A stretch of DNA of 64,000 bases from positions 1,386,624-1,450,623 of the forward strand of contig NZ_JAENHL010000008.1 in assembly GCF_016595235.1 (NCBI RefSeq), in the 5' to 3' direction. This DNA is from Taklimakanibacter albus. GTDB lineage: Bacteria > Pseudomonadota > Alphaproteobacteria > Rhizobiales > Aestuariivirgaceae. Position numbers and translations under genes: made by a program. Numbering within the stretch: position 1 is the first letter of the stretch; every line of letters starts with the position of its first letter. Positions 1,612 to 33,470 of this stretch are shown here, in pieces. The notes under the pieces are model-generated. The model saw only the letters and a program-made list of their open reading frames with translations, was not told where the DNA came from and made no database searches.

Positions 1612-1618
1612 TTCAGTC

Positions 1619-2386
1619 TTACTCCAGGCCAAGCTGCGCCGCGGCGAGCAAACGTCTGGTGAGGTCGGCCTCAGGCGCCGCGAAGACGCGCTCGGTCGGC
1701 CCCTGCTCGATGATGCGGCCATGATCCAGCACGATCACCCGGTCGGTGACGGCGCGGATCACACTCATCTCATGGGTGATGAGCAGGATGGTCAAACCAA
1801 GCCTGCGGTTGATATCCTTGAGAAGGCTTAAGATCGCGGTGGTGGTTTCGGGATCGAGCGCCGAGGTGGCCTCATCGGAGAGGAGCAGCGCCGGTGACGC
1901 GGCAAGGGCGCGGGCAATGCCGACCCGCTGCTTCTGCCCGCCCGACAATTGCGCCGGATAGGCATCCGCCTTGGCATCGAGTCCGACCAGCCGCAGCAGG
2001 TCTTCGACGCGGGCTTTCCGCTCAGCGCGGCTCCTGCCGGCGATCTTCAGCGGCAAGGCGACATTATCCGCGACCGTCTTGGCCGAGAGCAGATTGAAAT
2101 GCTGGAAGATCATGCCGATGCGCCGGCGCACTTTCTGCAGCTCGCTTTCATCAAGCGGCACGATGTCCCGCAACACGTCGTCACTGTCGAGCACTTCGAT
2201 CGAGCCCGTATCCGGCTTCTCCAGCCCGTTGATGCAACGGATCAGCGTCGACTTGCCGGCGCCGCTGCGGCCGATGACACCCAGGATCTCGCCGCGCCGC
2301 ACATCCAGCGAGATATCCTCGATCGCCGCATAGGCGCCGAACTTCTTGGTCACGCCGGACAAGCGCAGCATGGTTGGATTGTTCAT
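1619..2386 (-). CDS. metN: Methionine-type ABC transporter ATP-binding protein lacking the NIL domain
   Basis: This is a 255-aa ABC ATPase. The Walker A motif is GRSGAGKST (about residue 38), the signature is LSGGQKQRV, the Walker B is [12 protein letters not shown] and the switch His sits in LITHEMSV. Classical MetN is about 343 aa and ends in a NIL (ferredoxin-like) domain that binds methionine and inhibits transport. This protein stops at GLE soon after the nucleotide-binding domain, so that feedback domain is absent. It forms an operon with metI (7 bases downstream) and the substrate-binding gene upstream. Confidence 0.88.
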
Positions 2387-2459
2387 GATATCGGTATCCG
2401 GAAAACAATCATGCGCCCATTCGGGCGCATGATCGAGAGCAATTCGATTAATGAAGGTT

Positions 2460-3263
2460 TCACCAGGCCGGCAAGGCCGTACCCTTATAAACCTTCGCCA
2501 AGGTCTCCTTCACCGTGTCATTCTGATAGGCGGCAACGAGCGTCTTCACCCAGTCTTCGTTCTCGCGGCCCTGCTTGACGGCGATGAAGTTACGATAGGG
2601 ATTGTCGTCGACCGCTTCCGTCGCGACGCGGTCCGCGGGCGTCAGATTGGACTTGATGGCCCAGTCGGTGTTGACGACCGCGGCGTCGAGATCATCGATC
2701 GAGCGGCCGACGATGCCGGCATCGAGCTCCTGGATCTCGAGCTGCTTGGGATTCTCGACGATATCCACCGGCGTCGCCAGGATCCCCGCTTCCGGCTTCA
2801 GCTTGATGAGGCCTTGCGCCTCCAGAAGGCGGAGTGCCCGGCCTTCATTGCTCGGATCGTTCGGCACGCCGACGACTGCCTTGTCGGGCAGCTCGGCCAG
2901 GGATTTGTGCTTCTTCGAATAGAGGCCTATCGGCCACACGGCAGTGTAACCCACCGGCGCAATGTGATAGCCGCGCGTCTTGATCTGGTTGTCGAGATAG
3001 GGCTTGTGCTGGAAAGCATTGGCATCGAGCTCGTTGTTCTCCAAAGCCTCGTTGGGCTGAGTATAGTCGTTGAAGACGACGAGCTCGATGGTCAGTCCCT
3101 TCTTCGCCGCTTCCTGCGACACGACGGCCCAGACATCCTCGTCCTCGGCGCTCATGATGCCGACGCGAATTGACTGATCGGCGATGGCGCGATCGACGAG
3201 AGTGAGAGAGGAAATGGCCAGCGCAGCCGCCAGCAGCGCACGGCGGGAAAAATGAAGAGACAC
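2460..3263 (-). CDS. metQ: Methionine-type ABC transporter substrate-binding protein (NlpA/MetQ family)
   Basis: This is a 267-aa periplasmic binding protein of the NlpA lipoprotein family, identified by [49 protein letters not shown] and [11 protein letters not shown] chose GTG 3263 because AGGAG lies 8 bases upstream and translation then begins with a signal peptide ([19 protein letters not shown], cut near AIA). An ATG reading from 3353 would add 30 residues that do not look like a signal sequence. No lipobox Cys is obvious, so the protein may be periplasmic rather than a lipoprotein. It is the first gene of the metQ-metN-metI operon. Confidence 0.87.
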
Positions 3264-3354
3264 GACAGTAACTCCTGAGATTGGTCCTGATGACCAGCGA
3301 AGGTTGAGATATGTGGGGAGCACTAGCGGCTGAGGAAAGAGCTGCCGACCCATT

Positions 3355-3379
3355 TTTTCTTACGCATTACGTAAGAAAA
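3355..3379. promoter_or_regulatory. Perfect 10-bp inverted repeat in the metQ / flavoprotein divergent region
   Basis: TTTTCTTACG and CGTAAGAAAA form perfect arms around a 5-base CATTA spacer. The repeat lies in the 212-base gap between metQ (minus) and the acyl-CoA-dehydrogenase-like gene (plus). It sits between two diverging promoters and has no T-run suited to termination, so an operator for a shared regulator is the most likely role. No regulator gene is adjacent. Confidence 0.55.
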
Positions 3380-3475
3380 TCTCACCCGCCTGCCCTGGTC
3401 CGACCATCCGCCGCTGAAGATTTTCTCACATCGTAGATTAGAATTCCGAAGCCCGGCGCGGGTCGCCCGCATGTC

Positions 3476-4681
3476 ATGATCCCGGCCATGCTGCTGCCGT
3501 TCGAATCCAGACGAGTCAATGACCGCCCGCATCAGAGCGCGCTCGATGCGATCCGCGCGCGCGTCGAGGGCATTCTCCCACAACTCGCCGCGAGCGCGGC
3601 CGAGCATGACAGGACCGGCGAGCCTCCCGCCGCCAATCTCGCGCGGATCGCCGATGCGGGCCTCCTGCGTCTCGTCATTCCCCGCCTTGCCGGCGGCTAT
3701 GGCTATGGTCTCAGTGCTGCGAGCGATGTCATCGGCCGCATCGCCGAGGCGGAGCCCGCGTCGGCTTTGATCCTCGCCATGCATTATCTGCAACATGGCA
3801 CGATCGGTACGCGTGGCTTCTCCGGCCAGATCATCGAGCGGATCCGCAAGGACGCCATCATGGGGCTGTCGCTCATCAATGCGCTGCGGGTGGAGCCCGA
3901 GCTCGGCACACCGATGCGCGGCGGCATTCCCGCCACGGTGCTCAAACCCGCCGAAAATGGCTGGCGGCTTTCCGGCCACAAGATATTTTCGACCGGCATT
4001 CCTCTCCTGAGCTGGCTTGCCGTATGGGCGGCGACGGATGAACCACAGCCGCGCATCGGCACCGCGCTCGTGCGTGCCGCGTCACCGGGCATCCGTATCG
4101 TCGAGACTTGGCGGCATCACGGCATGCGCGCCACCGCCAGCCACGACGTGATCTTCCAGGACGTGTTCATTCCGGCGGAAAATGTCGGCGAGCTGCGGCC
4201 GGCCCATGAGCTTCCGGCGCGCGATTCCCAGCAGGCCATATGGAGCAGCCTGCTGATCGCGGCCGTCTATGACGGCATCGCCCGCTCGGCGCAGAGCTGG
4301 TTCCTGGATTTCCTGCGCGAGCGCGTGCCGGCCAATCTCGGCAAGCCGCTCGCGACGCTGCCGCGTTTTCAGGAGATCGCCGGCGAGATCGCAACGCTGC
4401 TCGCCATCAATAGCCGCCTCATCCGCACCGCCGCCGCCGAAGCCGACGCCGGCGAGATACCCGATCCGCAGGAGGCCGGCGCGATCAAAGTGACCGTCAC
4501 CGGCAATGCCATCAGCGCGGTCGAGGCGGCGCTCAAGGCGACCGGCAATCCCGGTCTCAGCCTGAACAACCCGCTCGAGCGCCACTATCGCGATGTGCTC
4601 TGCGGCCGCGTGCACTCGCCGCAAGAGGATTCGGTGCGGATCGCCGCCGGCCGCGGCGCGCTCCAGGATGCGAGATCATGA
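3476..4681 (+). CDS. Acyl-CoA dehydrogenase-like flavoprotein (SfnB/DszC-type monooxygenase)
   Basis: This 401-aa protein has the acyl-CoA dehydrogenase fold. The N-terminal helical domain includes AEHDRTGEPPAANLARIADAG, the middle domain has GWRLSGHKIFSTG, and a C-terminal helical bundle follows. The line of family members nearest in layout (SfnB, DszC) uses reduced FMN and O2 to attack organosulfur compounds rather than acyl-CoA. The neighbours support this: a metQNI-like transporter diverges upstream and an SsuD-like monooxygenase overlaps its stop by 4 bases (ATGA). Translation starts at 3476 or at the in-frame ATG at 3488. The substrate is not predictable from sequence. Confidence 0.8.
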   Translation: MIPAMLLPFESRRVNDRPHQSALDAIRARVEGILPQLAASAAEHDRTGEPPAANLARIADAGLLRLVIPRLAGGYGYGLSAASDVIGRIAEAEPASALILAMHYLQHGTIGTRGFSGQIIERIRKDAIMGLSLINALRVEPELGTPMRGGIPATVLKPAENGWRLSGHKIFSTGIPLLSWLAVWAATDEPQPRIGTALVRAASPGIRIVETWRHHGMRATASHDVIFQDVFIPAENVGELRPAHELPARDSQQAIWSSLLIAAVYDGIARSAQSWFLDFLRERVPANLGKPLATLPRFQEIAGEIATLLAINSRLIRTAAAEADAGEIPDPQEAGAIKVTVTGNAISAVEAALKATGNPGLSLNNPLERHYRDVLCGRVHSPQEDSVRIAAGRGALQDARS

Positions 4682-5754
4682 GTATCGAGTTCATCGGGCT
4701 TGTCGAAATGCGCGAGGCCTCGGAAACCATCGTTGCACGCGGCGGCGCCATCGATGTCGATTTCATCGAGACCTCGGCCAAGGCGCATGAGGCGAGCGGC
4801 TTCGACCGTGTGCTCGTCGCCTATCATGCGACGATACCGGACAGCCTGCTGGTTTCCCAGCATATCGCGGCCGTCACCCGCAGGCTCAAGCTGATGGTGG
4901 CGCACCGGCCCGGCTTCACGGCGCCCTCGGTCACGGCGCGCCAGTTCGCCACGCTCGATCATCTCACTCATGGCCGTGCCGGCATCCATATCATCACCGG
5001 CGGCGATGATGCGGAACAGCGCCAGGATGGCGACTTCCTCGGCAAGGAGGAACGCTACGCGCGCACCGATGAATATCTGGAGGTCATCAAACGGGTGTGG
5101 ACCGCGGAGCACCCCTTCGATCACAACGGCCGCTTCTATCGCAGCGAGCGGACATTCAGCACCATCAAGCCGGTGCAGCGGCCGCATCTGCCGGTCTATT
5201 TCGGCGGCGCCTCCGACGCCGCGATCAAGGTTGCGGCCCGGCATGCCGACATTTATGCGCTGTGGGGTGAATCGCTCGAGCAGGTGAAGGAGCTGACGGC
5301 GCGCGTGCGCGCCGAAGCGGCAGCGCTCGGCCGCAGCATCCGCTTCAGCATCTCATTCCGGCCCATTCTCGCCGACACGGAAGAAAAGGCATGGGCACGC
5401 GCCGACGATACGCTGGCCCGTGCCCGCGCCGTCATCGAACGCTCAGGCTTCAAGCGGGAGAGCGGGCCCGTCAATGAAGGCTCGCTCAGACTGCTCAAGG
5501 CTGCTGCCCAAGGCTCGCGTCTCGACAAGCGCGTATGGACCGACATGGCCGCTCTGACCGGGGCCAAAGGCAATTCGATCGCGCTGGTGGGAACGCCGGC
5601 GCAGGTCGCCGAAGCGCTCATCGACTATTACGATCTCGGCATCACGACCTTCCTCATTCGTGGCTTCGATCCCCTCGATGACGCCATCGATTATGGCCGC
5701 GAGCTCATACCCTTGACGCGCCGGCTGATCGCCGAGCGGCGCAAAGATGGCTAG
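4678..5754 (+). CDS. SsuD-like LLM-class FMN-dependent alkanesulfonate monooxygenase
   Basis: This 358-aa protein matches the bacterial-luciferase TIM-barrel family in the same order as SsuD. Landmarks are AHRPGFTAPSVTARQFATLD, HGRAGIHIITGGDD, ERYARTDEYLEVIKRVW and PVYFGGASDAAIKVAARHAD. SsuD uses FMNH2 and O2 to release sulfite from alkanesulfonates. Its start overlaps the stop of the upstream flavoprotein by 4 bases, so the two are co-translated. No dedicated flavin reductase is present in the window. The exact sulfonate is unknown. Confidence 0.85.
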   Translation: MSIEFIGLVEMREASETIVARGGAIDVDFIETSAKAHEASGFDRVLVAYHATIPDSLLVSQHIAAVTRRLKLMVAHRPGFTAPSVTARQFATLDHLTHGRAGIHIITGGDDAEQRQDGDFLGKEERYARTDEYLEVIKRVWTAEHPFDHNGRFYRSERTFSTIKPVQRPHLPVYFGGASDAAIKVAARHADIYALWGESLEQVKELTARVRAEAAALGRSIRFSISFRPILADTEEKAWARADDTLARARAVIERSGFKRESGPVNEGSLRLLKAAAQGSRLDKRVWTDMAALTGAKGNSIALVGTPAQVAEALIDYYDLGITTFLIRGFDPLDDAIDYGRELIPLTRRLIAERRKDG

Positions 5755-5873
5755 ACCAGAAACGGCAGAAGCACCGTCACGGCGAGGCCCAGCACGAAGG
5801 TTGCCGCGAAGATGATGAGCAGGCCGAGCGGTGGTCCATCAGTCGGCTCGTGCTGATAATCCTGCGGTGTCAT
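5751..5873 (-). CDS. Small 40-aa single-span membrane protein
   Basis: A 40-codon frame on the minus strand reads MTPQDYQHEPTDGPPLG and then about 23 hydrophobic residues ending LLPFLV. This is the layout of a small single-pass inner-membrane protein with a charged N-terminus. An AAGAAGG lies about 10 bases upstream of the ATG. The stop overlaps the last codon of the SsuD-like gene on the other strand. Its function is unknown. It could also be a chance frame, but the clean hydrophobic segment and the ribosome site favour a gene. Confidence 0.42.
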   Translation of the reverse strand: MTPQDYQHEPTDGPPLGLLIIFAATFVLGLAVTVLLPFLV

Positions 5874-5930
5874 CGGCCTGCGCCCTTCTTTTGCCCGACC
5901 CACAGGCTCGCGCAATTCGATGCCGGCGGA

Positions 5931-5966
5931 CAGAACAAAAAACTAAAGGCAGATCTGACTTTATCT
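5931..5966 (+). repeat. 36-bp direct repeat, left copy
   Basis: This 36-base element begins CAGAACAAAAAACTAAAGGC and ends TTTATCT. It recurs in the same orientation at 13849-13884 with three mismatches. The left copy overlaps the last two codons of fcl. Together the copies bracket the fucose/peptide island. The element is not a hairpin. It may be an insertion footprint or a dispersed genomic repeat. Confidence 0.75.
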
Positions 5967-6917
5967 CTCGCGGTTTTGCAGATACCACGCATAGGTTGCC
6001 TGCAGAGCAGCCTCGAAAGGCCTTCGCGCCTTCCACCCCATCGCGGCGAGCCGGGAAGTGTCCATGAGCTTGCGCGGCGCGCCGTCCGGCTTCGTCGTGT
6101 CATAGACGATGCGGCCGGTGAAGCCGGTGAGGCGGGCGATCGCCTGCGCCAGCTCGGCGATGCTCATATCCTCGCCCGTGCCGATATTGATATGAGACTG
6201 CCTGGGCTGCGTATTCGCCCTGTAGGTCTCCTGCGGCAGATCCATGACGAACAAGGAAGCCTCGGCCATGTCATCGACATAGAGGAATTCGCGCCGCGGC
6301 GTGCCGCTGCCCCAGACCACGATTTCCGGGGCGCCGGCGCGGGCCGCCTCGTGAAACCGGCGGAGAAGTGCGGGCAGCACATGGGAATTCTCGGGATGGA
6401 AATTGTCACCGGGGCCGAAGACATTGGTCGGCATCACCGAACGATAATCGACGCCATATTGCCGGTTGTAGCTCTCGCACATTTTTATGCCGGCGATCTT
6501 GGCGACGGCATAAGGCTCGTTTGTGGCTTCGAGCTCTCCGGTCAGGAGAGCGTCCTCGCGCATCGGCTGTGGCGCGGCGCGCGGATAGATGCAGGACGAG
6601 CCGAGAAACAACAATCGCCTGACGCCGGCGGCATAGGCCTGATGGATCACATTGCTCTGGATCATCAGGTTCTGATAGATGAATTCGGCGGGATAGGTGG
6701 CATTGGCATATATGCCGCCGACCTTGGCGGCGGCGAGGATCACGACGTCAGGACGCTCGCTTTCCATGAAAGCACGCACCGCGGCCTGGTCAGTGAGATC
6801 GAGCTCGGCGTGGCTGCGGCTTACGGACTCGATGTCCGCGCGCGCAACCAGCCGGCGCAAGATGGCCGATCCCACCATGCCTTCATGCCCGGCGAGATAG
6901 AGTTTCGTGGCGCGCAT
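5961..6917 (-). CDS. fcl: GDP-L-fucose synthase
   Basis: This is a 318-aa extended short-chain dehydrogenase. The NADP-binding motif GHEGMVG is at residues 10-16. The catalytic set is Ser107/Ser108 in GSSCIYP, Tyr136 in PYAVAK and Lys140. It epimerises and reduces GDP-4-keto-6-deoxymannose to GDP-L-fucose, the second step after Gmd. Its ATG follows the gmd stop codon directly with no gap. The final codons lie inside the 36-bp repeat. With gmd, the manC-like gene and a GT10 gene nearby, the fucose donor pathway is complete. Confidence 0.93.
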
Positions 6918-8072
6918 TCAGCTATCCGCCGCCAAGCCGTGGTCTCTCAGGAAGGCATCGCGCCGGGCGACTTTCAGATCTTCCGCCACCATTTCGGCGC
7001 AGGTCTCCCGGGCGGTGATTTCGGCGCGCCAGCCGAGTTTTTCCCGCGCCTTGGACGGATCGCCAAGCAAGTCCTCGACCTCCGCGGGGCGGAAATAGCG
7101 CGGATCAATGCGGATGATGACATCACCCGGCTTGATCCCCGGCGCCAGATCCGACGTGACGGCGTCCACGACCCCGCGCTCCTCGACTCCACTGCCCTCG
7201 AAACGCAGCACGACGCCCAGTTCCCCAGCTGTCCAGAGAATGAAGTCACGCACGGAGAATTGCTCACCCGTGGCGATCACATAGTCTTCCGGCTCATCCT
7301 GCTGAAGCATCAGCCATTGCATGCGCACATAATCCCTGGCGTGTCCCCAGTCGCGCTTGGCATCGAGATTGCCCAGATGGAGACAGGGCTCGAGCCCTTG
7401 CGCAATTCTCGTCATCCCCCTGGTGATCTTGCGCGTCACGAAGGTCTCGCCGCGGCGCGGACTCTCATGGTTGAAGAGGATGCCGTTGCAAGCAAAGAGA
7501 CCATAGGCCTCGCGATAATTGACCGTGATCCAATAGGCATAGAGCTTGGCCACCGCATAGGGGCTGCGCGGGTGGAACGGTGTCGCCTCGTTTTGCGGCG
7601 TCTCCTGCGCGAGCCCGTAGAGCTCGGATGTCGAGGCCTGATAGAAGCGCGTCTTCGTCTCCAGCTTCAGGAAACGGATCGCCTCGAGCAGACGCAACGT
7701 GCCCAAGGCATCGATATCGGCCGTGTATTCGGGCATCTCGAAGCTCACCGCCACATGACTTTGGGCGCCGAGATTGTAAACTTCGTCGGGTCTGATTTCG
7801 GCGAGGAGGCGCGTCAGATTGGAGCTGTCGCCGAGATCGCCATAGTGAAGCATCAGCCTTGGATCGGGGACATGCGGGTCCTGATAGAGGTGGTCGATCC
7901 GCTGTGTGTTGATCGACGAGGCGCGGCGCTTGATCCCATGCACCTCATAGCCCTTCCCGAGCAGGAATTCGGCCAGATAGGATCCGTCCTGGCCGGTGAT
8001 GCCGGTAATGAGAGCGCGCCTGGCCCCTGATGTCATCTTTCGAGACATAATCGAGATCGCCATGGACCGCAA
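6918..8072 (-). CDS. gmd: GDP-mannose 4,6-dehydratase
   Basis: This protein (up to 384 aa) has the family N-terminus [20 protein letters not shown], the catalytic STSELYG segment and the [10 protein letters not shown] active-site Tyr/Lys. It converts GDP-mannose to GDP-4-keto-6-deoxymannose. The start is uncertain. The TTG at 8072 has GGAGG 10 bases upstream, ATG codons lie at 8063 and 8048, and ATG 8036 gives the family-typical length but has a poor ribosome site. The stop abuts the fcl start, so the two are translationally coupled. It diverges from the manC-like gene across 56 bases. Confidence 0.93.
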
Positions 8073-8128: not shown

Positions 8129-9433
8129 GTGCTGATTACTCCCCTCATCGTCTGTGGCGGCGCCGGTACACGGCTGTGGCCCGCCTCGCGCGAAAGCCGG
8201 CCGAAGCAGTTTCTTTCACTCTTTGACGGCGGCCTGTCGACGTTCCAGGAGACCGTGCGGCGCGCGACGGACGCCACGCTGTTCACCCCGCCGGTCATCA
8301 TCACCCATCGTAGCTACCGGTCGCTCGCCGCGGCGCAGCTGGATGAGCTGGGTGTCCGCGCCGATATCCTGCTCGAGCCCGACGCCCGCGCTTCGGGGCC
8401 CGCGATATTGGCCGGGGCCTTGTTCATTGCGCTCAGCCGGGGTAACGAGGCGCCTATCCTGGCGCTTGCCGCCGACCATGTGATCCACGATATCGCAGCC
8501 TTTCGGGCCGACTGCCGCGCGGCGCTCGGCGCGGCGCGATCGGGCCATATCGTCACTTTCGGCATCGCGCCCGATCGCCCGGCGACCGGCTATGGCTATA
8601 TCGAGGCCGGTGCCGCCATGGAGCCCGGCATTCGGGCGGTGAAGAGATTCGTGGAGAAGCCGGATGAGGAAACGGCCGCTCTTTATGTCCGCCAAGGCTA
8701 TCTCTGGAATTCCGGCAACTTTCTGTTTGAAACGACAGCGGTGATCGATGCCTATGGAGAGACCGATCCCGCGACATTGGCCGCGTTGCGGGAGGCCGTG
8801 AGTCATACGCGGACAGAGGGGCAGGACCATCATCTCGACGCCACCGCCTTCGACCGGGCGGTGAGCCTGTCCTTCGACTATGCCGTCATGGAGAAGACCT
8901 CCCGGGCGGCGGTGGTCAGCGCCTCGTTCGACTGGTCGGATGTCGGCTCCTGGGCGACGATCCATGAGCTGTCCCGGCGCGATGCGGCCGGCAATGCCGT
9001 GAAGGGGGATGCCGCTTTCGTTGCGGCCAGAGACAATCTTGTCCTCAGCGACGGTCCTCTCGTGGCTTTGGCGGGCGTCAACGATCTTGCCGTCGTGGTG
9101 ACCTCCGATGCGGTGCTCGTCTCCCGCCGCGATGATTCATCCGGCGTGAAGAAGCTCGTGGAGCAGTTGAAGCAACATTCCTCATCTTCTGGCCACCCGG
9201 GGATTCGCCAAATGGATCTCTTGCCTGGCGAACGGATTTCCGTGCCGAGCGTCCTCGATCGCGCCAGGCATTGGCTCGTTCTCATGGGCACGGCCGGTGT
9301 GACGATTGCGGGAGCAACCCGGCAGTTGCAGAAAGCCGAATCCATTCAGATCCCGCCGGAAGCCGAATGCGCCCTGGAAAATATAGGGCCCGGCGCATTG
9401 CGGATTGTCGAGATTGAGCTTCCTCCCGACTAA
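8129..9433 (+). CDS. Mannose-1-phosphate guanylyltransferase with a degenerate isomerase-type cupin
   Basis: This 434-aa protein starts at GTG 8129, the only start in frame. The N-terminal nucleotidyltransferase has the signature GGAGTRLWPASRESRPKQF at about 10-28, then LALAADHVI, FVEKPDEETA and FDWSDVGSW. It makes GDP-mannose from mannose-1-phosphate and GTP, feeding Gmd and Fcl. The last 80 residues follow the type II phosphomannose-isomerase cupin (MDLLPGERISV, ARHWLVLMGTAGVTI), but the usual metal-binding QMHHHR segment reads SVPSVLDRARHW. The isomerase half therefore looks inactive, and mannose-6-phosphate must come from elsewhere. Confidence 0.9.
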   Translation: MLITPLIVCGGAGTRLWPASRESRPKQFLSLFDGGLSTFQETVRRATDATLFTPPVIITHRSYRSLAAAQLDELGVRADILLEPDARASGPAILAGALFIALSRGNEAPILALAADHVIHDIAAFRADCRAALGAARSGHIVTFGIAPDRPATGYGYIEAGAAMEPGIRAVKRFVEKPDEETAALYVRQGYLWNSGNFLFETTAVIDAYGETDPATLAALREAVSHTRTEGQDHHLDATAFDRAVSLSFDYAVMEKTSRAAVVSASFDWSDVGSWATIHELSRRDAAGNAVKGDAAFVAARDNLVLSDGPLVALAGVNDLAVVVTSDAVLVSRRDDSSGVKKLVEQLKQHSSSSGHPGIRQMDLLPGERISVPSVLDRARHWLVLMGTAGVTIAGATRQLQKAESIQIPPEAECALENIGPGALRIVEIELPPD

Positions 9434-11524: not shown

Positions 11525-11680
11525 TCAGCCGTTGCCGGTCGAGGCCATCTGGGCGAGCGGCTTCACGTCATCGAGCGCGTAAGAGAGAATTCTCGGCGCT
11601 TCATATCTTGCGCCGGCAAGTGCCGCCACCTTCTTAAGTGCGTTGGTAGAGTCGATCGCGTTTGTATGGGCAGCAGCCAT
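11525..11680 (-). CDS. Candidate RiPP-type precursor peptide with YxxPxI leader motif (51 aa)
   Basis: This 51-aa peptide starts at ATG 11680 with AAAGGG 6 bases upstream. It opens MAAAHTNAIDSTNALKKVA and contains RYEAPRIL, giving Tyr26, Pro29 and Ile31. This YxxPx[IL] pattern is how lasso-type and related leaders bind PqqD-like recognition domains. The putative core is the last 15-19 residues, ending MASTGNG, with no Cys. A longer frame from 11878 overlaps the PqqD-like gene and is unlikely. The gene sits directly after a PqqD-like gene and before GT2-TPR and ATP-grasp genes. No lasso cyclase or peptidase is nearby, so the product class is unknown. A regulatory small protein is an alternative. 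Confidence 0.55.
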   Translation of the reverse strand: MAAAHTNAIDSTNALKKVAALAGARYEAPRILSYALDDVKPLAQMASTGNG

Positions 11681-11744
11681 ATCATACCCTTTCCGGCACA
11701 GATCATCCCTCGACCGCCACTTGTAATTGCGCCGCTCCGGACTG

Positions 11745-12020
11745 TCAACGCACGGCCTCGATGAGTCCTTCATCGCGCAGAGAGGCGAGACAGGTTTCGA
11801 CATCGGACGTGGGATGAGCCGCGAGACCGAAAGCGGCGGTAAGTACTGAAGCGATGGCATCGGCGTCATGCGCGCCATCGCAGAGCTCGAACACTGCTGC
11901 CGCGGTGGGGTTCAGAAAGTGGACCTTTCCGCGCGCGACGTCGCTGACGAAATAGCCGCCTTCGATCTCATTGCGGACGAGCCCTTCGATGCGGCGGTAG
12001 AACGGGTCAGCTTTCGTCAT
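11745..12020 (-). CDS. PqqD-family peptide chaperone (RiPP recognition element)
   Basis: This 91-aa protein of the PqqD/RRE winged-helix fold has beta strands in VRNEIEGGYFVSDVARGKVH, then the hallmark NPTAAAVFELCDGAHDADAIA, then a helix ending LRDEGLIEAV. Stand-alone RRE proteins hold the leader peptide for modifying enzymes. I prefer ATG 12020; a GTG at 12062 would add 14 residues. It is the first minus-strand gene of peptide, GT2-TPR and ATP-grasp, and diverges from the GT10 gene across 65 bases. Its fit to the YxxP peptide just downstream is the main evidence for a peptide-modification locus. Confidence 0.8.
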   Translation of the reverse strand: MTKADPFYRRIEGLVRNEIEGGYFVSDVARGKVHFLNPTAAAVFELCDGAHDADAIASVLTAAFGLAAHPTSDVETCLASLRDEGLIEAVR

Positions 12021-12085: not shown

Positions 12086-12976
12086 ATGCTGGTCCTGATC
12101 CACGATTCGATGGGCGGAAACATACCCGCGGCGCCATTTCCGCCGGACGTGGAGGTCACCACCGACCGGGCGCGCCTTACTGAAGCGGATGCCGTCGTCT
12201 TTCACATCCCCGACTGGCGGCAGGATCAGATGATCGCCAGGTCCGAATGGGACTGGCGGTTTCCTTTCGAGAAACGGCCGGGGCAGCGCTGGATCGGCTG
12301 GTCGATGGAATGCGACGAGCATTATCCCTGGTCGCGCAATATCAGGTTCATGCGCCATTTCGACTTGACCATGACCTATCGGCTCACCTCGGACGCGCCG
12401 GTCACCTATGTGATCCCGCATGTGATGGTCGAGGCTTTCCGCCGGCCGCCGGTCCCGAAGCATGAGCCGGTGCTCGCCGCGTCCTTCGTGTCGAGCCGGT
12501 ATGATCATAGCGGACGCCAAGCCTATTTGCAGGAATTGGCACGGCATATGGCGATCGATTCCTATGGATCCTTCATGCGCAACCGCACTCTGGCCAATGA
12601 TCGCGGCATCCCGTCAAAGCTCGCCGCGATCGCGCATTACCGCTTCACCATCGCGTTCGAGAACGCCTGCAGCCGTGACTATGTCACCGAGAAATTCTTC
12701 GAGCCGCTGCAGGCGGGCTCCGTGCCGGTCTATCTCGGGGCGCCGAATATCGAGGATTTCGCCCCTGGCGAAAACTGCTTCATAAAGGCGGCCGACTTTC
12801 CCGAGCCTAGAAAATTGGCTGCATATCTCAAAGAACTGGCCGCGGATGAAGAGGCCTATTCGGCCTATTTCACCTGGCGACAAGAACCCTTTCGCCAGAG
12901 CTTCAAGAAGCTCCTGGATCTGGAGTCCGAGCCCTGGCTTCACCGCATGTGCCGGGGGCTTCGGACACTGCGATGA
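12086..12976 (+). CDS. GT10-family alpha-fucosyltransferase
   Basis: This 296-aa glycosyltransferase has the strongly conserved C-terminal GDP-fucose-binding block of alpha-1,3-fucosyltransferases: YRFTIAFENACSRDYVTEKF followed by FEPLQAGSVPVYLGAPNIED and then FAPGENCFI. It transfers L-fucose from GDP-fucose, which the neighbouring ManC-like, Gmd and Fcl proteins would supply. No signal peptide or long membrane segment is visible, so it should act in the cytoplasm. It diverges from the PqqD-like gene. The acceptor could be the 51-aa peptide, a lipid-linked glycan or lipopolysaccharide; sequence alone does not decide. Confidence 0.88.
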   Translation: MLVLIHDSMGGNIPAAPFPPDVEVTTDRARLTEADAVVFHIPDWRQDQMIARSEWDWRFPFEKRPGQRWIGWSMECDEHYPWSRNIRFMRHFDLTMTYRLTSDAPVTYVIPHVMVEAFRRPPVPKHEPVLAASFVSSRYDHSGRQAYLQELARHMAIDSYGSFMRNRTLANDRGIPSKLAAIAHYRFTIAFENACSRDYVTEKFFEPLQAGSVPVYLGAPNIEDFAPGENCFIKAADFPEPRKLAAYLKELAADEEAYSAYFTWRQEPFRQSFKKLLDLESEPWLHRMCRGLRTLR

Positions 12977-13107: not shown

Positions 13108-13830
13108 ATGGTGAATAAGCTTCTTTTGACAGGTGCCGGCTTCCTTCTGGTGAGCGCCAGCATGAATGCGGCGCGGGCCGCCGATATCGTTGAGCCCGCG
13201 GTCTATGACTGGACCGGCCCCTTCATCGGCCTGCAAGGCGGTTACGCCTGGGGCAACAATGATACATCAACCGAGAATTCCGAGAATGGTCCGCCCGTCT
13301 TTTCGTTTGAAGAGGACAGCGGGTCCCTGAATCTCGATGGCTTCGTCGGCGGCCTGCATGCCGGGTATAACTGGCAGTCGGACAGCCTGGTCCTCGGCGT
13401 CGTGGGCGATATCGAATTCGCCGATTTGAAGGGCGATACCGAAGTCTCGATCAATGATTTCCCCCTTTCAGATCTCGAGGGCAAGATCGACTGGCTGGGT
13501 TCACTCAGGCTGCGTGCCGGCTTTGCGGCTGATCGCGCTCTTTTGTATGCCACCGGCGGCCTCGCGGTCGGCGGCGCCGAGCTCTCGATCGATAACAATC
13601 TCTCGGACGCGGATGCCGACAACCAGGAGACCAAATGGGGCTGGACGATCGGTGGCGGCGTCGAATATGCCGTGACCGACGAGCTGAGCGCGTTCCTCGA
13701 ATATCGCTATACCGATCTCGGCAAGATCGACGTCAAGCTCGACCTTCCCGAAGGCCAGAGAGAAAGCGAGGCGGATCTGGATTTCCACGCCGTTCGCGCC
13801 GGCCTAAGCTGGCATTTCAACGGCTTGTAA
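13108..13830 (+). CDS. Outer-membrane beta-barrel protein (RopB/Omp31-like porin family)
   Basis: This is a 240-aa protein. It has a signal peptide (about residues 1-24, ending ARAA), the family opening YDWTGPFIGLQGGYAWG, repeated amphipathic strands (GFVGGLHAGYNWQSDSLVLG, LLYATGGLAVGGAEL, AFLEYRYTDLG) and a terminal strand AVRAGLSWHF. Such 8-stranded barrels are abundant outer-membrane proteins in Hyphomicrobiales. AGGGGA precedes the ATG at good spacing. It is the last gene before the right-hand 36-bp repeat, so it may travel with the island, or it may be a resident gene beside it. Confidence 0.9.
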   Translation: MVNKLLLTGAGFLLVSASMNAARAADIVEPAVYDWTGPFIGLQGGYAWGNNDTSTENSENGPPVFSFEEDSGSLNLDGFVGGLHAGYNWQSDSLVLGVVGDIEFADLKGDTEVSINDFPLSDLEGKIDWLGSLRLRAGFAADRALLYATGGLAVGGAELSIDNNLSDADADNQETKWGWTIGGGVEYAVTDELSAFLEYRYTDLGKIDVKLDLPEGQRESEADLDFHAVRAGLSWHFNGL

Positions 13831-13884: not shown

Positions 13885-13946
13885 GAGCTGACCCCTGTCG
13901 GCCGCGCCGATAGATATAAAGCGCGAACATTCCGATGGAGGCCTCC

Positions 13947-15167
13947 ATGACCAGCCTTGCCACAGCGCCGAGCTTCGATCCGGCGCCCACCGCCCATGTG
14001 ATCACGTCCGATGAAGAAGCCGTGGCACTGGCGCGCAGCCTGGCGGTCGAGTTCGCCGCCGAAGCCTCCGAGCGTGACCGCACACGGCACCTGCCCGCCG
14101 CCGAGATCGACCGGTTCTCGAGCACCGGCCTGTGGGCCATCACGGTTCCCAAAGCCTATGGCGGCGCCGAAGTCTCTTTCGCAACGCTCGCCGAAGTGAT
14201 CAAGATCGTCTCTGCCGCCGATCCCTCGATCGGCCAGATGCCGCAGAATCATCTGGCCGCGCTCGATGCGATCCGCGCCTCGGCCTCGGAGGAACAGAAG
14301 AAATTGTGGTTCGGGCGCGTGCTCAAAGGCTATCGGCTGGGCAATGCGTTTTCCGAGGCCAAGAGCCGGCATGTCGGCGCCTTCGAGACGACGATCCGAC
14401 CCGAGGGCGACGGCTATGTCGTCAATGGCGAGAAATTCTACGCGACCGGCGCGCTGTTCGCCCATTACATCCATATCGGCGCCGTCGACCCCCATGGCAA
14501 AGTCCATCTCGCCATCGTTCCGCGCGATGCGCCGGGCCTCACCATCACCGACAGCTGGTCGGGCTTCGGCCAGCGCACGACGGCGAGCGGCAATGTTTCG
14601 ATCGCCAATGTCCGCGTCGACCCGTCGGGCGTGATCCCGGCCTATCTCGGCGGCGAGAACCCCTCCTCCAACGGTGCCGTCTCGCAGATCATCCAGGCCG
14701 CCGTCGATGCTGGCATCGCTTTGGCCGCGGTCGAGGAAACCATCCGCTTCGTGCGTGAGCACACAAGGCCCTGGATCGACAGTGGCCAGGAACACGGCCA
14801 TGAGGATGTGTTCACCATCGCGCAGATCGGCGATCTCAAGATCAGGCTGCAAGCCGCCGAAGCGGTGCTCGAAGAGGCCGGCAAAGCCATCGACCGGATC
14901 GTTCACCAGCCGACCGACGACAATGTGGCGGAGACAGCCGTAAAAGTCGCCGAGGCCAAGGTGCTGACCACCGAGATCGCTATCCTCGCCACCAACAAGC
15001 TGCATGAGCTCGGCGGCACGCGCACGGTGCTCGGCCAGCACAATCTCGACCGGCACTGGCGCAATGCCCGCACCCATACGCTGCATGATCCGGTGCGTTG
15101 GAAATATTTCCATATCGGCAATCACGTGCTCAATGGTGTCAGGCCGCCGCGTCACGCGTGGAACTGA
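13947..15167 (+). CDS. SfnB-family sulfur acquisition oxidoreductase
   Basis: This 406-aa acyl-CoA-dehydrogenase-fold protein closely follows the SfnB family. Landmarks are ASERDRTRHLPAAEIDRFSS, LWAITVPKAYGGAEVSF, GYVVNGEKFYATGALFAHYI, GFGQRTTASGNV and the C-terminal RNARTHTLHDPVRWKYFHIG. SfnB-type enzymes take part in using dimethyl-sulfone or other organosulfur compounds when sulfate is short. ATG 13947 is chosen because GGAGG ends 5 bases before it; ATG 13935 overlaps that site. It leads an eight-gene operon for sulfur scavenging. Confidence 0.88.
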   Translation: MTSLATAPSFDPAPTAHVITSDEEAVALARSLAVEFAAEASERDRTRHLPAAEIDRFSSTGLWAITVPKAYGGAEVSFATLAEVIKIVSAADPSIGQMPQNHLAALDAIRASASEEQKKLWFGRVLKGYRLGNAFSEAKSRHVGAFETTIRPEGDGYVVNGEKFYATGALFAHYIHIGAVDPHGKVHLAIVPRDAPGLTITDSWSGFGQRTTASGNVSIANVRVDPSGVIPAYLGGENPSSNGAVSQIIQAAVDAGIALAAVEETIRFVREHTRPWIDSGQEHGHEDVFTIAQIGDLKIRLQAAEAVLEEAGKAIDRIVHQPTDDNVAETAVKVAEAKVLTTEIAILATNKLHELGGTRTVLGQHNLDRHWRNARTHTLHDPVRWKYFHIGNHVLNGVRPPRHAWN

Positions 15168-15194
15168 CGGGCCGGCGCGAGCCCTGGATTACTC

Positions 15195-16583
15195 ATGCCG
15201 AAACAGATCCGCCTCAACGCCTTCGAGATGAATTGCGTCGCGCATCAGTCGCCGGGACTGTGGCAGCATCCGCGCGACCGGTCGAAGGATTATGCAAGGC
15301 TCGATTACTGGGTGGAGCTGGCGCAGACGCTGGAGCGGGGAAAGTTCGACGGCCTGTTCCTCGCCGATGTGCTCGGCGTCTATGACGTGTTCGGCGGCAC
15401 CGCCGATGCCGCGCTGAAGCACGCCATCCAGGTGCCGGTCAACGACCCGCTGCTCCTGGTGCCGGCCATGGCGCAGGCAACCCGGAATCTGGGCTTCGGC
15501 GTGACCGTCACTCTCTCCTATGAGCCGCCCTTCCCCTTCGCGCGGCGGATGACGACGCTCGACCACCTGACGCAAGGCCGGATCGGCTGGAACGTGGTCA
15601 CGGGGTATCTCGACAGCGCGGCACGCAGCATGGGCCGCGACAAGCAGAAAGCCCATGACGAGCGTTATGCGGTCGCCGAAGATTATATGGATGTCGTCTA
15701 TCAGCTGTGGGAAGGCAGCTGGGCCGACGACGCCGTGCTTCGCGACCGCAAAGGCGGCGTGTTCACCGACCCGAGACGGGTGCGCCGGATCTCACATCGC
15801 GGTCCGCATTACCGGCTCGACGCGATGCATCTGGGCGAACCGTCGCCGCAGCGCACGCCCGTCCTCTATCAGGCGGGCTCGTCGCCCGCCGGCCGCGCCT
15901 TTGCCGCCCGTCATGCCGAATGTGTGTTCATCTCTGGCCCCTCCAAGCAGGTCATCGCGCCCCGGGTCGCGGCGATCCGCAAGCTCGCCGCCGAGGCCGG
16001 GCGCGATCCGCAAAGCTTGCTGATCTTCGCCTTGATGACCGTCATCACCGCACCCAACCATGCCGATGCGCAGGCGAAACTCGCCGATTACCGCCGTTAT
16101 GCCAATCCCGAAGGGGCGCTTGCTCTGATGTCGGGCTGGACCGGTGTCGATTTCTCGCGCCTCGATCCGAACCAGATCGTCCAGCATGTGGAGAGCGAGG
16201 CCGGGCGCACCGCGCTCGAGAATATCACGCGCGCCGATCCGCAACGGGCCTGGACGGTGAGCGAAGTCGCCAGTCACGTGGCGATCGGGGGCATCGGCCC
16301 GGTCATCGTTGGGTCTCCCGACCATGTCGCCGACGAGCTCGAATCCTGGATCGACGAGACCGATATCGACGGGTTCAATCTGGCTTTCGCGGTGAGGCCC
16401 GAGACATTCAGCGATGTGGTCGATCTCGTTGTTCCCGTCCTGCAGAAGCGCGGCCGCTACAAGCGCGACTATGCGCCAGGAACTTTGCGCGAGAAATTGT
16501 TCAGGCAGGGCCAAGCCCGCCTTGGGCCGGAGCATCCGGCGGCCCGCTATCGCTGGCGCGCGCAAGAAAAACTACAGGCATAG
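15195..16583 (+). CDS. NtaA/SnaA/DszA-type LLM FMN-dependent monooxygenase
   Basis: This 462-aa flavin monooxygenase belongs to the nitrilotriacetate/DszA branch. It opens with RLNAFEMNCVAHQSPGLWQHPRD and DYWVELAQTLERGKFDGLFL. It also has ARRMTTLDHLTQGRIGWNVV, the ERYAVAEDYMDVVYQLWEGS block and PVLYQAGSSPAGRAFAARHA. These enzymes insert oxygen next to C-S or C-N bonds using FMNH2 supplied by a reductase not found here. It is co-directional with sfnB-like and 2OG-oxygenase genes, and the sulfonate ABC transporter downstream suggests an organosulfur substrate. Confidence 0.88.
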   Translation: MPKQIRLNAFEMNCVAHQSPGLWQHPRDRSKDYARLDYWVELAQTLERGKFDGLFLADVLGVYDVFGGTADAALKHAIQVPVNDPLLLVPAMAQATRNLGFGVTVTLSYEPPFPFARRMTTLDHLTQGRIGWNVVTGYLDSAARSMGRDKQKAHDERYAVAEDYMDVVYQLWEGSWADDAVLRDRKGGVFTDPRRVRRISHRGPHYRLDAMHLGEPSPQRTPVLYQAGSSPAGRAFAARHAECVFISGPSKQVIAPRVAAIRKLAAEAGRDPQSLLIFALMTVITAPNHADAQAKLADYRRYANPEGALALMSGWTGVDFSRLDPNQIVQHVESEAGRTALENITRADPQRAWTVSEVASHVAIGGIGPVIVGSPDHVADELESWIDETDIDGFNLAFAVRPETFSDVVDLVVPVLQKRGRYKRDYAPGTLREKLFRQGQARLGPEHPAARYRWRAQEKLQA

Positions 16584-16660
16584 TTTAGCATAAGTCCTTT
16601 GCTCCGCGTGGCTCGCGCATGCGATCCAAACAGGCACCGATCGTTTGTGCGAGATGTGCC

Positions 16661-17716
16661 ATGCCGGAACTCCATACCGAGAAACTCCCCATCCTGGATC
16701 TGAGCGAGCTCGACGAGGCGGCCAACCGGCGCCAGGCGTTTCTCGCCCGCCTGCGCGAGACCGCGCATGGCATCGGCTTCTTTTATGTCTCAGGCCATGG
16801 CGTACCGCAGCATCTCATCCGCGATGTGCTTGCCCAGTCGCGCCAGTTCTTCGCGCTTCCAGAAGCCGACAAGCTCGCCATCCAGATGGTGAACTCGGCG
16901 CAGTTCCGCGGCTACAACCGCGCCGGCCTCGAGCACACACGTGGCAAGCCCGACTGGCGCGAGCAGATCGATATCGGCGCCGAGCTGCCGGAGCGCGCCA
17001 TCGACCGTTCCGCGCCGCCCTGGACAAGGCTGCAGGGGCCCAATCAATGGCCGGCCGCCCTGCCGTCGCTGCGTCCTGTCATTCTCGACTATCTGGGCCT
17101 CGTCACCGATCTCGCGGTGCGCATCACGCGCGCTTTCGCCGAAGCGCTTGAACAGCCGGCCAATATCTTCGAGCCGATCTACACACCGGCGCCCAATCAG
17201 CTCCTCAAGATCGTACGGTATCCGGGGCGCGAGAAAAGCGAAGGCGACCAGGGCGTCGGCGCCCACAAGGACAGCGGCTTCGTCACCGTCCTGCTGCAGG
17301 ACACCCAATCAGGCCTGCAGGTCGAGGGTAAGTCGGGCTGGATCGATGCACCGCCCATTCCCGGCACTTTCGTCATCAATATCGGCGAGGTGCTCGAAAT
17401 GGCGTCCAACGGTTATCTGCGCGCCAATGTCCATCGCGTCGTGTCGCCGCCCGCCGGCGGTGACCGCCTGTCGGTGCCGTTTTTCTTCGGCGCCAGGCTC
17501 GACGCGACCATTCCGGTCCTGGCATTGCCGCCGCATCTCTCGGCCCATGCGCAAGGTGTCACCCAGGATCCGCAAAACCCGCTCTTCCGCGATGTCGGCA
17601 AGAACTACCTCAAAAGCCGGCTCAGATCGCATCCCGACGTGGCGCGCCGGCATCATGCCGACCTGCTGGAGCCACGTGAGCGAGACGGCGCCCCGGCCGT
17701 CGCCTCCGCCTATTGA
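16661..17716 (+). CDS. Isopenicillin-N-synthase-like 2-oxoglutarate/Fe(II) dioxygenase
   Basis: This 351-aa protein has the DIOX_N and 2OG-FeII fold. Landmarks are LDLSELDEAANRRQAF, GIGFFYVSGHGVP, the iron site HxD in GAHKDSGFVTVLLQD, the distal His in ANVHRVVSPP and the 2OG-binding Arg-x-Ser in GDRLSVPFFF. ATG 16661 gives the family N-terminus; an upstream ATG at 16619 adds 14 residues. In sulfur-scavenging operons such enzymes may hydroxylate sulfonates or sulfate esters, as TauD and AtsK do although these are of a different subfamily. The substrate is unknown. Confidence 0.85.
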   Translation: MPELHTEKLPILDLSELDEAANRRQAFLARLRETAHGIGFFYVSGHGVPQHLIRDVLAQSRQFFALPEADKLAIQMVNSAQFRGYNRAGLEHTRGKPDWREQIDIGAELPERAIDRSAPPWTRLQGPNQWPAALPSLRPVILDYLGLVTDLAVRITRAFAEALEQPANIFEPIYTPAPNQLLKIVRYPGREKSEGDQGVGAHKDSGFVTVLLQDTQSGLQVEGKSGWIDAPPIPGTFVINIGEVLEMASNGYLRANVHRVVSPPAGGDRLSVPFFFGARLDATIPVLALPPHLSAHAQGVTQDPQNPLFRDVGKNYLKSRLRSHPDVARRHHADLLEPRERDGAPAVASAY

Positions 17717-17748
17717 GCTTTTCATTCCGATCATCAGGGAGAACTATC

Positions 17749-19083
17749 ATGACCGCCGACTCGAAACATCCCGAGACGCTCGCCCTTCACGGCGGAACTT
17801 ATCGCTCCGACCCGGTGTCGGGCGCCGTCGCGGTGCCGCTCTATCAGACGACGTCCTACCAGTTCCAGGATACGGGACACGCCGCGCGGCTTTTCGCGCT
17901 GGAAGAGATCGGAAATATCTATACCCGCGTCCAGAACCCGACCCAAGATGCGTTCGAGCAGCGCATCGCCGCCGTCGAAGGCGGCGTCGCGGCGCTCGCG
18001 GTCGCTTCCGGCCAGGCAGCGTCCGCCTATTCGGTGCTGAATCTCGCGCAGGCCGGCGACAATATCGTCTCCTCGACCGACCTCTATGGCGGCACAGTCA
18101 CGCTGTTCTCGCAGACACTCAAGCAGTTCGGGGTCGAGGTGCGTTTCGTCGATCCGTCGGACCCTGAAAATTTCCGCCGCGCCACCGATGCCAAGACGCG
18201 CGCTTACTACGCCGAATCATTACCCAATCCGAAGCTGCATGTCTTCCCGATCCGTGAGGTGGCAGCGATCGGACGCGAGCTCGGTGTGCCGCTGATCATC
18301 GATAACACCGCTTCACCCTTGATCCTGCGGCCCTTCGATCATGGCGCGGCGATCGTCGTCCATTCGGCCACGAAATATATCGGCGGCCACGGCACCAGCA
18401 TCGGCGGCGTCATCATCGACGGCGGCAATTTCCCCTGGGAGGCGCATGCCGAACGTTTTCCCCTCCTCACCCAGCCCGACGGCGCCTATCACGGCGCGAT
18501 CTGGACCGAGGCGGCGAAGCCCTTGGGCCCCATCGCCTATATCCTCAGGGTGCGCGTCAAGCTCTTACGCGACATTGGCGCCGCGGCCTCGCCCTTCAAT
18601 GTCTGGCAGTTCATCCAGGGCCTCGAGACCCTGCCGCTCCGGGTGCGCCAGCACAATGAAAATGCGATCAAGGTCGCCGACTTCCTGTCCAAGCGGGCGG
18701 ACATCACCCAGGTCATCTTCCCCGGCCTGCAGACCGGCAAACTACGCCAGCGCGCCGATCACTATCTGAAAGGCGGCTATGGCGCGCTCATCGGCTTCGA
18801 GCTCAAGGGGGGCATCGACGCCGGGCGGAAATTCATCGACAGCCTCAAGCTTCTCTATCATGTCGCCAATATCGGCGATGCCCGCTCGCTCGCCATCCAT
18901 CCGGCCTCGACGACACATCAGCAGCTGTCGGCGGAAGAGCAGCTCGCCGCCGGCGTGACGCCCGGCTATGTGCGCCTCGCGATCGGCATCGAGCATCCCG
19001 ACGACATCATCGCGGATATTCGCCAGGCGCTCGACGCGGCCAAAGAAGCGCATGAGCCCTCGGGCGTCTCGCGCGCCGCCTGA
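17749..19083 (+). CDS. metY: O-acetylhomoserine sulfhydrylase (MetY-type PLP enzyme)
   Basis: This 444-aa Cys/Met-metabolism PLP enzyme opens PETLALHGGTYRSDPVSGAV. It carries the PLP-phosphate-binding ALAVASGQAASAYSVLNLAQ, the cofactor Asp in PLIIDNTASP, the Schiff-base Lys in VHSATKYIGGHG and the C-terminal RLAIGIEHPDDI. It adds sulfide to O-acetylhomoserine to give homocysteine. ATG 17749 follows GGGAGA at good spacing; the frame upstream to 17713 overlaps the dioxygenase. In this operon it would capture sulfur freed by the monooxygenases once sulfite is reduced. Confidence 0.92.
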   Translation: MTADSKHPETLALHGGTYRSDPVSGAVAVPLYQTTSYQFQDTGHAARLFALEEIGNIYTRVQNPTQDAFEQRIAAVEGGVAALAVASGQAASAYSVLNLAQAGDNIVSSTDLYGGTVTLFSQTLKQFGVEVRFVDPSDPENFRRATDAKTRAYYAESLPNPKLHVFPIREVAAIGRELGVPLIIDNTASPLILRPFDHGAAIVVHSATKYIGGHGTSIGGVIIDGGNFPWEAHAERFPLLTQPDGAYHGAIWTEAAKPLGPIAYILRVRVKLLRDIGAAASPFNVWQFIQGLETLPLRVRQHNENAIKVADFLSKRADITQVIFPGLQTGKLRQRADHYLKGGYGALIGFELKGGIDAGRKFIDSLKLLYHVANIGDARSLAIHPASTTHQQLSAEEQLAAGVTPGYVRLAIGIEHPDDIIADIRQALDAAKEAHEPSGVSRAA

Positions 19084-33151: not shown

Positions 33152-33470
33152 TTTCCCCTTTGCCCGCCGCCAGCGTTGCCCCCAGAATCGCTCGCAACTC
33201 TGTCGCCGTTATTTATTTCTTAAGTATACCCTCATTGATTTTACGTCCAGTCAAAACAATGAAATCACATCGTTATTTGCGGGCGCTGACAAATACTGCG
33301 CGATCGATGTCGCTATTGTCCCACAGTGGTACGACAGCCAAGTGAAGCTGCTAAAAATGTACAGGGCGTGTCCGGAGCCGGTCGACCGCAACGCCGTCAC
33401 AGCGCACCAATTACGACATTTACCTAAAGTCAACTTTTATGTTAAACCGCCTCTACCGGAGGCAGGTTTC
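33152..33470. other. AT-richer divergent intergenic region (319 bases)
   Basis: This gap separates the autotransporter gene from the second ATP-grasp gene and must hold both promoters. It is clearly lower in GC than its surroundings, especially 33210-33300. No convincing gene is seen; open frames across it are extensions of the ATP-grasp frame without homology. It contains the promoter-like motif at 33434-33449 and a GGAGG at about 33457-33462 serving the ATG at 33471. Confidence 0.6.
33434..33449 (+). promoter_or_regulatory. Promoter-like motif shared with 12992 (copy 2)
   Basis: CTTTTATGTTAAACCG differs from the copy at 12992-13007 by one base. It lies 21 bases upstream of the ATP-grasp start codon. 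Both copies sit in AT-richer gaps upstream of plus-strand genes tied to the island or its paralogue. Confidence 0.35.

Follow-up and report, generated by a model that had tools for sequence, protein, structure and literature searches.

Related systems

Several described pathways share features with a gene cassette found in a 64,000-nucleotide stretch of DNA (hereafter the window) from Taklimakanibacter albus, a member of the Aestuariivirgaceae in the Hyphomicrobiales. That of the linear polyphosphorylated peptides (LPP) of Bacillota, as set out in PMC13381572, has a stand-alone RRE and a YxxPx[V/I] precursor, no macrocyclase seen, surroundings rich in glycosyltransferases, and kept Asn and Asp residues that bind the leader, and in all these respects the cassette is like it. 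That source gives the LPP precursor consensus as YxxPxVLxHQxIxFETxxS, and has N33 of LppB hold the proline kink of the leader and D70 its tyrosine. An ATP-grasp enzyme and a Gly-Asn tail on the peptide are extras of the cassette. No SpI-like leader peptidase, as in LPP, was noticed among the scanned genes, in a scan not dedicated to it, and profiles for the HprK-like kinase and NTP transferase of LPP (HPRK, NTP5) have no match in the 16 kb around the window cassette; elsewhere in the same genome HprK_rel_A (cut-off 200) has matches of 40.3 bits, on contig C3, and of 20.7 bits, on C8 at a distance of about 0.5 Mb. With no HprK-like or NTP transferase match in the cluster, and a precursor alignment that departs from the consensus, assignment to LPP was ruled out.

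Glycocins are relevant through SunS and ThuS, which have the fold of the GT2-TPR enzyme of the cassette and are the closest to it in the structure library; the acceptor of SunS is a Cys in the core, and a stand-alone RRE with YxxP sets the cassette apart from glycocins. Graspetides are defined by Asp or Glu in the core for cross-linking, and they too have ATP-grasp and peptide in one locus, with PsnB among the fold neighbours of the cassette ATP-grasp. Lasso peptides with a discrete RRE (TfuB1) combine a YxxP leader with the RRE, as does the cassette. In HPr-rel-A loci (NCBIfam TIGR04352/TIGR04353) the likeness is to the recognition protein, the window RRE scoring 31.8 bits with TIGR04353, below the cut-off of 35; sister loci of the same order hold PqqD, HprK-like and NTP_transf_5 genes with the same GT2-TPR, whereas the window locus has no HprK-like match. 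Fusions of an RRE to a glycosyltransferase are mentioned in PMC12710340 and PMC7470986. The combination present in the cassette is not named in the titles and abstract openings of the PMC papers listed by the searches, a scope outside which subscription papers, supplements and preprints fall.

The locus in the window

The initial annotation, made from the sequence of the window, had described a 51-aa peptide containing RYEAPRIL, with its own ribosome site, after a PqqD-like gene and before GT2-TPR and ATP-grasp genes. These coordinates are confirmed (Table 1), and the ribosome site is GGAAAGGG, preceding the peptide ATG. Absent from that annotation were the GT10 gene, the GDP-fucose genes (5961-8072, minus strand) and the outer-membrane barrel gene. 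The cassette is probably, though by no comfortable margin of confidence, an RRE-guided, linear RiPP-type glycopeptide pathway with an ATP-grasp step, for which both sites and chemistry are presumed, and it is best placed among RRE-dependent peptide modifications as a new variant, whose product is most likely a glycopeptide.

Table 1. Genes of the cassette and of sugar-donor supply, with window coordinates
Feature	Position	Strand	Evidence
PqqD-like gene (stand-alone RRE, PqqD fold), 91 aa	12020-11745	-	PF05402 5.2e-11, 43.2 bits, cut-off 23.4
Precursor-like peptide, 51 aa; Tyr26, Pro29, Ser33, Gly49-Asn50	11680-11525	-	Translation, dN/dS, alignment A4, motif counts
GT2-TPR glycosyltransferase, SunS/ThuS/GmaR-like, DADERL motif kept	11478-10366	-	
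ATP-grasp enzyme, carboxylate-amine-ligase fold	10369-9437	-	Pfam weak, below cut-off; AlphaFold2 model has ATP-grasp neighbours
GT10 fucosyltransferase	12086-12976	+	PF00852 6e-36
Small outer-membrane beta-barrel protein	13108-13830	+	PF13505 5e-21
GDP-L-fucose synthase-like (GMER), donor supply, outside core cassette	5961-6917	-	PF01370 4.7e-65
GDP-mannose 4,6-dehydratase (GMD), donor supply	6918-8072	-	PF16363 4.9e-150
Mannose-1-phosphate guanylyltransferase-like (ManC), donor supply	8129-9433	+	PF00483 and PF22640

In T. lacteus (L011) the six genes from ATP-grasp through barrel are kept as a block with flanking genes that differ from those of the window, and GMD and GMER profiles have no match in the 16 kb around it. 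None of the genes scanned was recognisable as one for a leader peptidase or a dedicated exporter. The barrel protein is one we take to be akin to OMP25/31. NlpA lipoprotein, ABC transporter, acyl-CoA-dehydrogenase-like, luciferase-like monooxygenase and Cys/Met-metabolism genes flank the cassette (958-5754 and 13935-19083), presumably an organosulfur-use region into which it was inserted. Further along the window a glycine-rich, autotransporter-like gene of 3632 aa (22253-33151, minus strand; no Pfam match at E <= 0.01) faces, in head-to-head orientation, a second member of the ATP-grasp family (33120-34406, plus strand), and the genome has at least five matches to that family, five being the number of best candidates scored. 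A plasmid search returned a single 93-base match, under a glycosyltransferase gene, and nothing else.

The peptide gene and its fixed spacing

The 51-codon peptide frame is a real gene. Pairwise dN/dS among the peptides of the window, L010 and L011 is 0.083, 0.145 and 0.127, values resting on few changes (9-28 per pair), and in 8 of 10 comparisons with the window the peptide value is below those of the PqqD, GT2-TPR, ATP-grasp, GT10 and barrel genes; from Ala24 onward the three peptides differ at three positions. The reading frame stays open 5′ of the ATG in the window, and the ORF listed for T. lacteus starts at the position that matches this ATG. A scan for small ORFs preceded by an RBS and having [YF]xxPx[hydrophobic] and a GN tail, a pattern designed after the peptides were known, gave 13 in 15 cassette and satellite loci (254,811 bases, the window excluded; the RBS rule missed the L015 peptide and L056 is without any) and none in 39 control loci (599,435 bases). 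Chance occurrence of the ORF was ruled out by dN/dS and this control. What is asked of RiPPs in general, a genome-encoded precursor under selection with a leader motif, is thus present.

In the motif set of 15 peptides, 13 from cassettes and two from satellite loci (L128, L129), the Tyr and Pro of YxxP are invariant, V, I or M occupies Tyr+5, Phe, Tyr, Leu or Met occupies Tyr+8, and Tyr+7 is Ser in 13 and Thr in two. The distance from Tyr to the Gly of Gly-Asn is 23 residues in 13 peptides and 22 in the other two, and Gly-Asn is followed by one residue in 11 peptides, two in three and seven in one. Beyond Tyr+8, Asp/Glu are absent from three of the 15, Lys from seven and Ser/Thr from two, the window peptide having two Asp/Glu there; from Tyr onward Cys occurs in one peptide, which is not that of the window. 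The reactive groups shared from Tyr on are therefore, besides Tyr itself, Ser/Thr+7, Asn and the C-terminal carboxylate. S-glycosylation cannot be the reaction common to all, since Cys is present in one of 15, nor can cross-linking of Asp/Glu side chains, since three lack these residues past Tyr+8, and it is on this last count that classification as a graspetide was ruled out. Ser/Thr+7 may be a sugar site or part of what the RRE binds.

The recognition element

The best PDB sequence match of the window RRE is TfuB1 (2.5e-6), with 9x8z, a ‘PqqD family protein’, at 5.2e-4 and PqqC/D chains lower. Asn37 and Asp73 align with an Asn and an Asp of 9x8z that lie 37 residues apart, just as N33 and D70 do in LppB, and from this residue spacing we infer that 9x8z is LppB. 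In an RRE alignment with nine rows from cassette loci and four from sister loci, counted by eye, the Asn is found in 13 of 13 rows and Asp/Glu in 12 of 13. The window RRE has a PqqD fold in which the leader-binding residues known from LppB appear to be kept, and it is predicted to bind the leader. Support in an RRE tree was too low for use.

With the PQQ-specific TIGR03859 the window RRE scores 29 bits, below the cut-off of 46, and no radical SAM match is present among 19 window proteins; on these two grounds PQQ biosynthesis was ruled out. For lasso peptides, the macrolactam cyclase profile PF00733 has no match among the same number of window proteins scanned, and the B2 leader peptidase (PF13471) has none over cut-off in the whole genome, the one match having 18.9 bits against 26 and lying about 1.2 Mb off. 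The absence of the B2 protease over cut-off genome-wide ruled out this class.

The GT2-TPR enzyme

Combination of GT2 with TPR is a common architecture, and GmaR, which has a bearing here, O-glycosylates flagellin. PDB sequence matches of the window GT2-TPR are GmaR (2.4e-40), SunS (2.3e-34) and ThuS (5.4e-28), and with its model (pLDDT 93) Foldseek found SunS at 8.6e-19, ThuS at 1.2e-17 and the next other protein at 2.3e-9, so the structural match to SunS and ThuS is the better by eight to nine orders of magnitude. The enzyme is closest to these peptide and protein glycosyltransferases, and DADERL is present in 16 of 16 aligned GT2-TPR rows. In the GT2-TPR tree the five enzymes from loci of the HprK/NTP type, considered below, group together (95/90), and those of the ATP-grasp type do not form one group. 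With the SunS-family profile TIGR04195 the score is 61.6 bits against a cut-off of 350. Glycocin status was ruled out on that score, even though fold and PDB matches agree, and on the rarity of Cys. Adjoining the L015 cassette (2309-6328) is a gene whose 1339-aa product is TPR/GT2-like and carries a sulfotransferase domain at its C-terminus.

Graspetide, glycocin, lasso peptide, PQQ and LPP thus each fail at least one tested feature. The view in the initial annotation that the pair fits no class it could name is supported, as are its RiPP-like pairing of peptide and PqqD-like protein and its YxxP logic.

The ATP-grasp enzyme and the barrel

The ATP-grasp enzyme (model pLDDT 92.6) has LysX/ArgX, DcsG, PsnB, Ddl and RimK as fold neighbours, at TM about 0.5, a level that suggests reaction type and not substrate, and the model suggests a carboxylate-amine ligase. 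All 23 aligned rows have K84, K122, R176, D247, E260 and N262. In a tree of 31 ATP-grasp rows (that of L063 void) with unsettled bootstrap, 12 of the 14 cassette enzymes considered below fall with the L084 enzyme in one group (100/100), with L012 and L015 outside. The idea that cassette ATP-grasps are one close clade was ruled out by these two, and as L084, which is without GT2-TPR, is inside, the ATP-grasp is not strictly tied to the peptide. The substrate role proposed for the peptide in the initial annotation is supported in part: glycosylation is indirectly favoured by the SunS/ThuS/GmaR-like enzyme and by the additional glycosyltransferases in relatives, and ATP-grasp ligation on the peptide is possible and no stronger, because many members of the ATP-grasp family occur without peptide, RRE or GT2-TPR, some of them adjoining outer-membrane barrel genes.

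It is conceivable, if somewhat unlikely, that the partner of the ATP-grasp is the outer-membrane barrel instead of the peptide, and that peptide, RRE and GT2-TPR act without it. All eight whole genomes have a barrel gene within 4 kb of the ATP-grasp gene, where the chance of this in each genome is 0.0055-0.032, and the eight, from four genera, are not independent; against this, the barrel profile is near just one of at least nine distant ATP-grasp paralogues listed for the same genomes. At L084 (7172-8933) barrel and ATP-grasp genes are 19 bases apart and no RRE, GT2-TPR or YxxP peptide was found, but since the L084 enzyme sits inside the cassette group of the tree the pair may be a cassette remnant, and the notion that it is an older unit was not borne out. 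A head-to-head arrangement of a family member with the autotransporter-like gene of the window, and the two satellites, where GN-tailed peptides occur with an RRE and no ATP-grasp match in 19.5 kb, also favour this separation of ATP-grasp and peptide. What speaks for the peptide as its partner is the fixed-spacing Gly-Asn tail in 15 of 15 peptides, where peptides of the HprK/NTP type lack the hydrophobic-xx-GN ending (one ends in GGN), and the 4-base overlap of GT2-TPR and ATP-grasp genes in the window.

Distribution

Of 397 genomes of the order, 22 have members matching the ATP-grasp profile A1 (best five candidates scored per genome). Eight of them score below 1e-130, including G035 (L015), which does so through the inclusion of its own sequence in that profile, its enzyme being 29% identical to that of the window. 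The peptide profile A4 matched 13 of 397 genomes at E <= 0.01, eight clearly (E <= 1.1e-6), and these are the same eight; the two 397-genome sets are taken to be identical, genome handles agreeing where listed. As A4 was built from seven of the eight, the independent finds are the Labrys okinawensis match and a second copy in Labrys KNU-23. Five weak matches (E 9e-4 to 8e-3) comprise two HprK/NTP-type loci (G224, G132), one with no cassette gene in 17 kb and a weak barrel match (G272), and two (G226, G233) of which one is within a 509-aa frame and one runs across a stop.

Two short patterns, run against 84,980 species genomes, revealed at least 31 loci. Fourteen non-redundant loci with ATP-grasp and GT2-TPR (window, L010, L011, L012, L015, L055-L059, L079-L082) were retained, leaving out duplicates (L075-L078, L083, L098, L102), the satellites L128 and L129, L084 and distant paralogues. 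They come from Taklimakanibacter, Labrys, Reyranella, Bradyrhizobium, Aestuariivirga, and Xanthobacteraceae and Rhodobacteraceae MAGs. In 13 of the 14 a YxxP peptide adjoins the ATP-grasp gene, the GT2-TPR gene or both, and an RRE gene is in the locus in 12, with those of L081 and L082 visible in one scan and hidden by the overlap filter of another. L057 is without an RRE, and Labrys okinawensis (L056) has neither peptide nor RRE in the locus, having RRE, GT10 and peptide together about 48 kb from the cassette. The second peptide of KNU-23 is accompanied by an RRE, a barrel gene and a gene judged by eye to be like the NodZ gene of L058.

The PqqD-like gene is present in three of five examined genomes of the genus, with the peptide adjoining in all three, and in 9 of 69 genomes of the family. 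The initial annotation had proposed a listing of small frames beside PqqD-like homologues, with a recurring YxxP peptide as support, and in all nine family loci a [YF]xxP peptide is indeed next to PqqD, GT2-TPR or HprK-like genes, GN-tailed in five (window, L010, L011, L012, L015) and of another sort in four (L013, L014, L016, L017). A class-wide GT2-TPR profile search (385 genomes, E <= 1e-50, best five candidates each) returned only the T. albus genome, so the known distribution is that given by the order search and the pattern scan.

Further glycosyltransferases

In the 14 loci GT4 is present in seven, GT10 in five, Anp1-like genes in four and the barrel in ten; GMD and GMER are both present in four, with a GMD-like gene in a fifth. 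Mannosyl_trans3-type genes occur in several and NodZ in L058, and in L012, L055, L058, L059 and L080 the GT4 and RRE genes touch or overlap. This wealth of glycosyltransferases beside the peptide, with the donor genes and the barrel, would also fit a peptide that is a carrier priming a surface glycan and staying attached to it; the locus would then make a peptide-primed polysaccharide rather than a natural-product RiPP. We regard this as unlikely, as none of the scanned window genes was recognisable as one for a flippase, a polymerase or export and the six-gene cassette of T. lacteus lacks GMD and GMER matches in the 16 kb around it.

A possible pathway

The genes, selection on the peptide, its motif and ruler, the kept binding residues, the enzyme kinships and recurrence are established, and the glycopeptide pathway favoured here would join them as follows. 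The stand-alone RRE would bind the leader by Tyr26 and Pro29 (YxxPxI), with Asn37 at the proline kink and Asp73 at the tyrosine, and pass the peptide to GT2-TPR for addition of the first sugar, for which every peptide offers two candidate sites, the Ser/Thr at Tyr+7 and the Asn of Gly-Asn; Cys is not a candidate. Further glycosyltransferases may lengthen the glycan, in the window the GT10 fucosyltransferase supplied by the GDP-fucose genes. The ATP-grasp would then activate a carboxylate, probably at the Gly-Asn end, held 22-23 residues from the RRE-bound tyrosine, and join it to an amine or other group, and the product would probably reach the cell surface, with the small barrel as its possible holder or conduit. 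These last two steps, ligation and surface delivery, are the least certain.

A more specific and very unlikely version has the RRE present the fixed-distance Gly-Asn end for ligation by the ATP-grasp to a glycan, an amino compound or the barrel, giving a fucosylated, ribosomally made surface tag. If so, the RiPP toolkit would be put to use in tagging proteins or glycans, in place of making a natural product for secretion. As it stands, an RRE-linked peptide family found in cultured soil bacteria related to Rhizobium is added whose gene set (SunS-like glycosyltransferase, ATP-grasp and often fucosyltransferases and outer-membrane barrel) is unlike those of the classes compared, and the fixed residues, Tyr, Pro, Ser/Thr+7 and Gly-Asn, offer handles for mutational tests of the RRE ruler.

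A sister type with an HprK-like kinase

In L013, L014, L017, L132 and L133, all of the same order, RRE and GT2-TPR genes are accompanied, instead of by ATP-grasp, by HprK-like and NTP_transf_5-like genes, and the peptides have [YF]xxPx[VI]x[ST]F, with three in L132 and seven in L133. This sister type resembles the LPP pathway of Bacillota (PMC13381572). ‘HprK-like’ is a loose name given the low scores with NCBIfam HprK_rel_A (cut-off 200), which are 38 bits for the L014 kinase and 13-14 bits for those of L055 and L080. L055, L080 and L081 have an HprK-like profile match and an ATP-grasp in the same locus, which links the two types. The branch that has ATP-grasp and the branch that has HprK-like kinase and nucleotidyltransferase are both rich in glycosyltransferases and have the motif [YF]xxPx[VIM]x[ST] in common.

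The rows of precursor-like genes in the sister loci (three in L132, seven in L133) are pertinent to another explanation, that the peptide stays chemically unmodified and acts as a small partner, regulatory or structural, of the RRE-like protein. Modification of the peptide is a prediction and no leader peptidase was seen among the genes scanned, yet such rows, the YxxP-GN ruler and the adjoining SunS/ThuS/GmaR-like enzyme all count against this explanation, which we consider quite unlikely.

L016, with no HprK-like, NTP5 or ATP-grasp match in 16 kb, has between its RRE and GT2-TPR genes a peptide (8150-8425, minus strand) with FVAPSVVTF and a three-fold repeat with Asn and Cys. The precursor-like genes of L133 (9615-11384) and L132 (9459-10099), both from one genus, follow each other in a row and have ANGSG in the tail.
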